This document shows positions 23,157-33,994 of a stretch of DNA of 39,879 nucleotides, in pieces. The stretch spans positions 1 through 39,879 of the forward strand of contig JAHFES010000011.1 of assembly GCA_023248355.1 (NCBI GenBank). Reading direction: 5' to 3'. The position numbers were made by a program, and so were the translations under genes. The DNA comes from Nitrospiraceae bacterium (lineage in GTDB: Bacteria; Nitrospirota; Nitrospiria; Nitrospirales; Nitrospiraceae). Under the pieces are notes generated by a model that saw only the letters and a list, made by a program, of their open reading frames with translations, was not told where the DNA came from and did no database searches. Positions within the stretch are counted from its first letter, which is position 1. Every line of letters starts with the position of its first letter.

Positions 23157-23240
23157 GTGAGGAGTGACGCGTGACCAGTGACGGCGAATGGATCAGCCAG
23201 CCGCTTTCCTGCTCATCACGCGTCACGCATCACGCATCAC
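23157..23240. repeat. Heptad-periodic inverted repeat in the trpE-trpG spacer
   Basis: (GTGANNN)x4 at 23157/23164/23171/23178 opposed by (TCACNNN)x4 at 23216/23223/23230/23237. 11-bp perfect inverted repeat GTGACGCGTGA (23164-23174) / TCACGCGTCAC (23216-23226). Confidence 0.85.
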
Positions 23241-26385: not shown

Positions 26386-27579
26386 ATGAGTACGCTTCCA
26401 GATTCACACGGCAGGTTTGGACCCTATGGCGGCCGGTATGTGCCGGAAACTCTCATGCCGGCTCTCCTTGAGCTGGAAGAGGAATATGCCAAAGCGAAGA
26501 AGGACCGCCGGTTTCAGAAAGAGCTCGCCTATTATCTGAAGCAATATGTGGGACGCCCCACGAGTTTGTATCGTGCCGACCGACTGAGCAAGCGATTGGG
26601 GGGCGCCAAGATCTATTTGAAACGCGAAGATCTCTGCCATACGGGGGCGCACAAGATCAATAATGCTATCGGGCAGGTGCTCCTTGCTCTCCGCATGAAG
26701 AAGCCGCGTATCATTGCCGAGACGGGCGCCGGCCAGCATGGTGTCGCTACGGCCACGGCAGCCGCCATGTTCGGCCTCCAATGCGAAATCTATATGGGCA
26801 CCGAAGATATGCAGCGGCAGGCGCTGAACGTCTACCGCATGAGGCTGCTGGGTGCAATAGTGACGGGCGTGGATGCCGGAAGCCGGACGCTCAAGGACGC
26901 GATCAGCGAAGCCATGCGCGATTGGACGACGAATGTCCGGACCACGCACTACATACTCGGGTCCGTCCTTGGCGCGCATCCCTATCCCATGATGATCCGT
27001 GATTTTCAGGCCATCATCGGACGAGAAGCACGACGACAGATTCTGGCGGCGGAAGGAAAGCTGCCTGATTACCTGGTCGCCTGCGTGGGGGGCGGCAGCA
27101 ATTCGATCGGTCTCTTCTTTCCATTCCTACGCGACAAGAAGGTGAAGATGGTTGGAGTTGAGGCGGGAGGGCTCGGCATTGCGAGCGGGAAGCACGCGGC
27201 CAGGTTTTCTGGTGGAAAGCCCGGCGTGTTGCAGGGCACCATGACCTATCTCCTCCAGGACGATAACGGGCAGATCAATTTGACGCATTCGGTGTCGGCA
27301 GGTCTCGACTATGCGGCGGTGGGGCCTGAGCATAGCCTGTATCACGATCAGGGCCGCGTCGAATATACCTATGCGACGGACGATGAAGCCATGTCGGCCT
27401 TTGATGTGCTCGCCCATGAAGAGGGCATTGTGCCGGCGTTGGAGAGCGCGCATGCCATCGCGCAGGTCGTCAAGCTCGCGCCGAAACTGAAGAAGTCGCA
27501 GATCGTCATCGTCAATCTTTCCGGGCGTGGCGATAAGGACGTTCAGCAAGTCGCGCGGATGCGGGGGGTGACTCTCTAA
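26386..27579 (+). CDS. trpB: Tryptophan synthase beta chain
   Basis: [47 protein letters not shown]. Confidence 0.98.
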
Positions 27580-27675
27580 GTGATGGGTGAACAGCGATGA
27601 GTGATAAGCGAAGACGATCGAACGGGTGTGGTATTTCCGATCAGGACCCATCACCCATCACCCATCACCCATCAC
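27580..27675. repeat. Heptad-periodic inverted repeat spanning the trpB-trpA junction and trpA 5' coding region
   Basis: GYGA at 27580/27587/27594/27601/27608 (period 7). Four perfect CCCATCA copies 27647-27674. GTGATGGGTGA (27580-27590) is complementary to TCACCCATCAC at 27651, 27658 and 27665. Confidence 0.85.
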
Positions 27676-28505
27676 AAGATAAGAACCGACTCGATGCCAC
27701 CTTTAAGCAGCTCGGAGCCAAAGGCGAGAAGGCTCTCATTGCCTATCTCATGGCAGGCGATCCCGGTCTGGCAGAAACAGAGCAACTGGTGCTGGCGATG
27801 GAGCAAGCCGGTGCCGATATTATTGAATTGGGTGTGCCATTTTCAGACCCGATTGCCGACGGACCAGTCATTCAGCAGGCGGCTGAACGGGCGCTACGCA
27901 ATGGCACCTCGCTCAGACAGATCTTGGTTTCGGTGAAGTCCTTGCGCCAGCGCACGGAGATTCCGATCGTCCTGATGGTCTATTACAATTCCATGTATGC
28001 CTTGGGAATCGAGGCATTCTGCAAGGCGGCACAAGCGGCAGGCGTCGATGGGTTGATTGTGCCCGATATGCCTCCAGACGAGGCTGGCCCGTTGAAGGGA
28101 CCGGCTGCAGCTGCCGGATTGAGACTCGTGTTTCTCCTCGCGCCCACGAGCACACCCGCGCGTAGAACCTATGTGGCGAAGGAGTCGCAGGGCTTCCTCT
28201 ACTACGTGTCGCTGACGGGCATTACCGGGGCAAAGATCCAGAACATGGCGGAGGTTGGCCAGAACGTCGAGAAGATCCGCAAGGTGACCAAAACCCCAGT
28301 CGCCGTCGGTTTCGGTGTGTCAACACCGGACGACGCGGTCAAGGTTGCCACCATGGCGGATGGAGTCATCGTCGGGAGCGCGATCGTCAAACAGATCGCG
28401 GCACATCAGCAGAAGCCCGACATGGTCGCGATCGTCGGAGCTTTTGTCGGCTCCTTGAAGCAGGCGATCCGACAGGCCTCCACCTCACGCCAGCCCAACG
28501 CGTAA
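27597..28505 (+). CDS. trpA: Tryptophan synthase alpha chain (start uncertain)
   Basis: ALIAYLMAGDPGL; ELGVPFSDPIADGPVIQ; the conserved body appears to begin near RLDATFKQL. The N-terminal ~30 aa lie in the repeat tract. Confidence 0.93.
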   Translation: MSDKRRRSNGCGISDQDPSPITHHPSQDKNRLDATFKQLGAKGEKALIAYLMAGDPGLAETEQLVLAMEQAGADIIELGVPFSDPIADGPVIQQAAERALRNGTSLRQILVSVKSLRQRTEIPIVLMVYYNSMYALGIEAFCKAAQAAGVDGLIVPDMPPDEAGPLKGPAAAAGLRLVFLLAPTSTPARRTYVAKESQGFLYYVSLTGITGAKIQNMAEVGQNVEKIRKVTKTPVAVGFGVSTPDDAVKVATMADGVIVGSAIVKQIAAHQQKPDMVAIVGAFVGSLKQAIRQASTSRQPNA

Positions 28506-31049: not shown

Positions 31050-31061
31050 AATAAGTGCTTT

Positions 31062-31115
31062 CAGCTTTCAGCGATCAGCTGGTTTTCGGATCTGCCAGCT
31101 GACGGCTGAATGCTG
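31062..31115. repeat. Heptad-periodic hairpin in the lolC/E-lolD spacer
   Basis: CAGCTTTCAGCGATCAGCTGG (31062-31082) versus CCAGCTGACGGCTGAATGCTG (31095-31115): 18/21 positions complementary, 12-nt loop. Confidence 0.8.
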
Positions 31116-31127
31116 ACAGCGTCGTTG

Positions 31128-33889: not shown

Positions 33890-33899
33890 AGAAAGACCG

Positions 33900-33994
33900 T
33901 GATGCGTGATGGGTGACGTGTGATGTATGTGAGGTGCAATGATGCATGACTCTTAGAGATCATCGTCAGGTTTGCTGACGGGTGACAGCTGATC
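33900..33994. repeat. Heptad-periodic repeat tract at the prfB 3' end and prfB-lysS spacer
   Basis: + strand GCTGACG GGTGACA GCTGATC (33974-33994) and GTGATGC GTGATGG GTGACGT GTGATGT (33900-33927). Confidence 0.7.

Follow-up and report, generated by a model that had tools for sequence, protein, structure and literature searches.

Among described systems, the intervening sequences (IVSs) of 23S rRNA genes come closest to the repeat reported here. The 23S IVS of Coxiella burnetii has three to four tandem heptamers ahead of its S23p gene and terminal inverted repeats of 28 bp; the function of 23S-IVP/S23p and the movement of IVSs are described as unknown, with mobility only hypothesised, and the S23p of Xanthomonas is described as a homopentamer (PMC4990558). 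In Geobacter metallireducens, multicopy tandem repeats with units of 7-8 nt (classes 1-3, of which class 3 is a heptanucleotide) are paired on opposite strands at variable distance, and one paired site is found between proBA; the passages that describe these sites read them as binding sites of global regulators and draw no link to PF05635 (PMC2700814). The TAACTGA repeats of Beggiatoaceae likewise form many heptamer arrays shortly before start codons, but they are almost only direct repeats of a fixed unit, without paired inverted arms, and the abstract reports no linked protein gene (PMC4679880). A four-helix-bundle protein homologous to PF05635 (PMC10053308), Avd, belongs to the diversity-generating retroelements and acts with a reverse transcriptase. 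REPINs and MITEs are also short, non-autonomous, intergenic inverted-repeat elements of high copy number.

The window analysed here is a 39,879 nt stretch of a Nitrospiraceae genome, in which an inverted pair of 7-nt arrays occupies positions 27580-27675, between the trpB stop and the body of TrpA. The family to which this element belongs resembles the 23S rRNA IVS in its association with a PF05635-type gene, in having terminal inverted repeats and tandem heptamers, and in its patchy distribution, and the 28-bp terminal repeats of Coxiella equal four of the heptads found here in length. Whereas the IVS is located in rRNA helices 9/25/45 and encodes S23p/IVP, the trpB/trpA element and its kin lie between protein genes and are mostly gene-less, the trpB/trpA copy included, and one of them, unlike the IVS, appears to supply a protein start. 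Excision by RNase III is a further feature of the IVS. The unit sequence differs from that of the G. metallireducens sites. Unlike REPINs and MITEs, the elements have arms of tandem heptads, and no Y1 transposase was detected in the genomes with the most copies; of the features typical of MITEs, terminal inverted repeats were present and target-site duplication was absent. Among the open-access papers searched, none was found to link PF05635 to dispersed heptad arrays, and none joined the Coxiella IVS heptamers, pentameric S23p and the paired sites of Geobacter.

The repeat element at the trpB/trpA junction

The trpB gene matched its Nitrospira relatives at 82-94% (tblastn), and the heptads of the 5′ arm begin directly 3′ of its TAA. 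As described in the initial annotation, GYGA recurs every 7 nt five times after this stop (27580-27614) and is followed by four exact copies of CCCATCA (27647-27674), a repeat delimited by TRF at 27646-27675 with a 100% match. Over 26 nt the two arms are 81% complementary, with a perfect core of 11 nt. Arrays of the YRTYACN type numbered nine in the window against 0.17 expected, and nine was reached by 0 of 100 shuffles. The features are listed in Table 1.

Table 1. Features of the trpB/trpA junction and other copies of the same class in the window
Feature	Coordinates	Strand	Remarks
trpB	26386..27579	+	TAA stop 27577-27579 abuts the element; ORF, Pfam PF00291, tblastn
5′ arm	27580..27614	+	Heptads GTGATGG GTGAACA GCGATGA GTGATAA GCGAAGA
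Shine-Dalgarno-like GGGTGA	27585..27590	+	From heptads 1-2, 6 nt before ATG 27597
Putative captured trpA start ATG	27597..27599	+	Inside heptad 3 of the 5′ arm
Loop, 32 nt	27615..27646	+	Translated; unrelated to the loops of other copies
3′ arm	27647..27675	+	CCCATCA x4 + C, translated as ..SPITHHPS..
trpA with 30-residue leader	27597..28505	+	Leader mostly element-encoded, predicted disordered
Second copy, 4+4 heptads	23157..23240	+	trpE/trpG junction; also there in N. moscoviensis (L375)
Single arm of same class	33899..33925	-	Between prfB and lysS

The ATG at 27597 had earlier been placed both inside the 5′ arm and in the loop between the arms. The former position is the right one; the codon is in the third of the five heptads, where it is paired in the predicted fold. 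It is the only ATG, GTG or TTG in the TrpA frame from the last upstream stop to the conserved body, and the next in-frame ATG lies 74 nt past the element, within the enzyme, so that the reported lack of an ATG between the repeat and the conserved body was borne out. The 3′ arm was correctly said to be translated before RLDATFKQL. The PF00290 domain spans residues 36-291 of TrpA, and in the AlphaFold2 model the leader (residues 1-30) had a pLDDT of 47-56, compared with 97 for residues 31-40 and mostly above 90 for the body.

The duplex of GGGTGA with the 16S 3′ end had a predicted energy of -8.5 kcal/mol here and -13.4 kcal/mol for the N. moscoviensis counterpart, both for an assumed 16S tail and not one taken from the sequence of this genome. 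This tail, taken as GATCACCTCC, pairs with GGTGATC, and adjacent GTGATGN heptads therefore supply both a Shine-Dalgarno-like GGTGA and, at a distance suited to initiation, an ATG. The sequence (CCCATCA)n is stop-free in every frame, and would therefore be translatable into a disordered N-terminal leader of TrpA. Since the GTGA arm offers stops, a ribosome site and a start while the other arm is open, signals would come first and the linker last in either orientation of insertion. Judged from sequence, the element would supply the start signal and the first ~30 residues of TrpA, with the reading frame kept across several species.

At the majority of the other Nitrospira trpBA loci that were examined, stop and start overlap as ATGA and TrpA lacks an N-terminal extension, beginning MSGRLE, MTGRIE or similar, which supports the earlier proposal that the repeat had displaced the native start and become coding. 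The heptad element was found in seven lineages (the source genome, N. moscoviensis, G085, G096, G099, G089 and G018), the last of which retains the 5′ arm only. In the repeat-bearing lineages trpB ends at a new stop, trpA begins within the 5′ arm, and the trpA reading frame continues through the 3′ arm. The stretch from the ATG up to RLD spans exactly 30 codons in the source genome, N. moscoviensis, G085, G096, G099, G089 and the decayed G009, although complete elements in the source genome range from 72 to 141 nt, and in the protein alignment SPITHHPS or a variant of it occupies identical positions in each of the six two-armed lineages. In both the TrpA and the TrpB tree the heptad lineages were interleaved with overlap types and not monophyletic, and these trees gave no support to a single clean insertion; either one old insertion was repeatedly lost or exchanged, or insertion recurred. 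The constant length of the leader favours a single origin of the element. Heptad-type inserts of other sequence were also seen at trpB/trpA in L129, L133, L136, L138 and L143, with the native ATG kept downstream. The trpBA of L123, from a contig titled uncultured Nitrosospira, groups within Nitrospira, probably owing to a naming or binning error.

Dispersed heptad arrays and their link to PF05635 genes

The source genome contained 170 array hits and the reversed-pattern control none. Hits were numerous also in N. moscoviensis (n = 263) and G096 (n = 152), and most relatives had 0-5. Complete elements (n = 34) were collected by a three-unit seed pattern, which in part selects for pure units but not for the count of four or the G at position 29. 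Exactly 4+4 heptads were present in 21 of the 34, the typical arm on both sides being (GTGATGN)4-G(T), and the G at the inner edge, position 29, occurred in 96% of arms. The loops of different copies are unrelated, with a mean similarity near that of shuffled sequence, and the one pair of highly similar loops is taken as one element counted twice in L020. Between the arms the spacers show no covariation (0.476 observed, 0.499 permuted), and this together with the unrelated loops argues for arrays that are read as such and not for a selected hairpin. In 21 elements, target-site duplications were no commoner than with permuted flanks.

Of the other complete copies that an open frame follows, many have a start codon shortly 3′ of the element, and trpA appears to be the clear case of start capture among the copies. 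TrpG retains its native start 3′ of the 23157-23240 element. At L022 (1418-1527) there is a second candidate capture, with an ATG at offset 17 in the 5′ arm, as in trpA; it opens a hydrophobic ORF of ~450 codons, for which a TTG just past the element is the alternative start.

Heptad arrays are associated with PF05635 genes. In G005, arms of the same class as those at trpB/trpA enclose a gene of PF05635 (23S_rRNA_IVP, a four-helix bundle), and ten PF05635 genes in relatives, one of them in N. moscoviensis, have this class of arm on both sides. Flanks could be tested for 105 of 112 Nitrospira PF05635 genes; in 83 of the 105 the inverted repeats of the flanks scored above the 95th percentile of the random controls, and 70 were significant against a mismatched-flank control. 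Against the latter control, 24 of 27 loci in a set from across Nitrospirota, mostly from outside the genus, had significant flanking inverted repeats. The excess periodicity of the flanks was mainly at lag 7 in the Nitrospira genes and at lags 7 and 8 in the phylum-wide set. Arm similarity tracks protein similarity (Mantel, 0/1000), and for genes at different sites the proportion of pairs with similar arms rose from 1.5% at <30% protein identity to 100% at >70% (9 pairs). Genomes with the cognate gene had a median of 24 array hits compared with 1 in those without it (p = 3e-6, and p = 0.006 once the gene's own arms were subtracted), p-values which treat related genomes as independent.

Two PF05635 genes were found in the source assembly (82.7% complete), neither with arms of the trpB/trpA class, and in G096, G094 and G030, which contain many arrays, no cognate PF05635 gene was detected. 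The GTGAT-class PF05635 genes occupy one conserved site, and the cognate genes therefore seem resident and not mobile at present. At the conserved site C130, the PF05635 gene of the source genome differs from those of relatives both in protein and in arm class, so that one site has hosted different elements; G000:C130:4687-4998 (L237), compared with L238, L240, L245 and L253, has the appearance of an insertion hot spot with differing PF05635 proteins and arm classes. PF05635 is not known to have a catalytic activity, and the same-arm genes of relatives encode no known transposase. Five chains make up each of the PDB matches 2gsc and 2rld.

Proposed capture of the trpA start and competing explanations

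We consider it likely that the start of trpA was captured by a gene-less element related to those of the IVS/S23p type. The element would be a gene-less member of the dispersed inverted heptad-array family, most likely derived from elements carrying a PF05635 four-helix-bundle gene (IVS/S23p-like); its arms belong to the class found around genes of the cognate PF05635 clade, and the cognate gene is present in N. moscoviensis. An ancestral insertion at the junction would have destroyed the ATGA overlap. The GTGA arm, following the new trpB stop, would then bring with it a ribosome site and a start codon, with GGTGA ~5-6 nt ahead of an ATG wherever two (G)GTGATGN heptads adjoin, and the stop-free reverse arm (CCCATCA)n would be translated as a disordered leader on TrpA. 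The four GTGA units at 7-nt spacing are probable recognition sites of a ring-forming PF05635 protein with one heptad read per subunit, which is probably also how the elements spread, in trans; we infer that this protein recognises or mobilises the arrays. The lack of a cognate gene in the source assembly and in G096, G094 and G030, the apparently resident state of the GTGAT-class genes, the unrelated loops, unlike those of fixed-transposon copies, the absence of target-site duplication and of any known catalytic activity in PF05635 count against a PF05635-derived element.

The 30-residue extension may instead predate the repeats, the arrays having invaded an existing leader later. Such an order agrees with six relatives (G009, G083, G076, G080, G079 and G081) in which TrpA is extended without clear arrays, and relatives with an extension encoded by non-repeat sequence had been named in the initial annotation as speaking against capture. 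That observation stands only in part, since in G009, G083 and G076 the extension is at the same position but keeps a heptad-like GTGATTC/ATGATCG, or a near variant, at the start. All six are, moreover, sister to G089 with its obvious arrays, which makes decay of the repeat the simpler reading, and all six two-armed lineages encode the 3′ arm at matching residue positions. The repeats were probably lost while the extension persisted, and an older leader is judged unlikely. We give still less credence to a regulatory RNA hairpin or attenuator of the trp operon whose fold is under selection. The complementary arms, the predicted pairing of both ribosome site and ATG, and the copies at two trp junctions would suit it, but the fold is unremarkable (z = -1.77, with 13 of 200 shuffles equally good) and without an Rfam match, the arm spacers lack covariation, and elements occur near many unrelated genes as well.

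Replication slippage alone, with neither a mobile nor a protein-linked origin of the tandem heptads, has a similarly small chance of being correct; it could enlarge tandem arrays and is in keeping with the missing target-site duplication, but leaves unexplained the inverted pairing, the recurring count of four, the common inner-edge G and the coevolution with PF05635 proteins. Movement by a Y1 tyrosine transposase, as for the dispersed palindromes of REPIN/RAYT systems, would account for the high copy number, the intergenic inverted arms and the variable loops. No Y1_Tnp gene was, however, detected in N. moscoviensis, the genome with the most copies (complete chromosome), or in G096 (77% complete), and the source genome has one Y1_Tnp frame of only 100 aa; tandem heptads are also not REP-like. 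This explanation is largely refuted by the highest-copy genome being without a Y1 transposase, and is very improbable.

Capture by a gene-less relative of IVS/S23p-type elements is accordingly the reading we retain. It may be extended to the suggestion that PF05635 proteins are the sequence-reading core of widespread transposase-less mobile elements, each ring reading its own 7-9-nt tandem array with one unit per subunit, the paired arrays being gene-less copies moved in trans and the 23S rRNA IVSs one branch. Gene junctions would then be preferred because the arms carry stop, ribosome-site and start signals. This extension is tentative, and we would sooner doubt than adopt it. The same-class repeats around poorly understood four-helix-bundle genes suggest a little-recognised kind of genomic element, and the link between PF05635 and its cognate 7-nt array offers a testable binding code, for which N. 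moscoviensis NSP M-1, a named and fully sequenced host strain, is a natural system to hand. A repeat element can, it appears, take over the start and leader of an enzyme without loss of frame, across several species.

Arrays of other classes were seen as well. The PF05635 genes L251, L259 and L244 are flanked by arrays with 8- or 9-nt units. Within the window, the element at 31057-31120, between two ABC-transporter genes, has heptads of a further class (TTTCAGC TTTCAGC GATCAGC ... GCTGAC GGCTGAA TGCTGAC), and arms like these flank the PF05635 genes L241 and L243.
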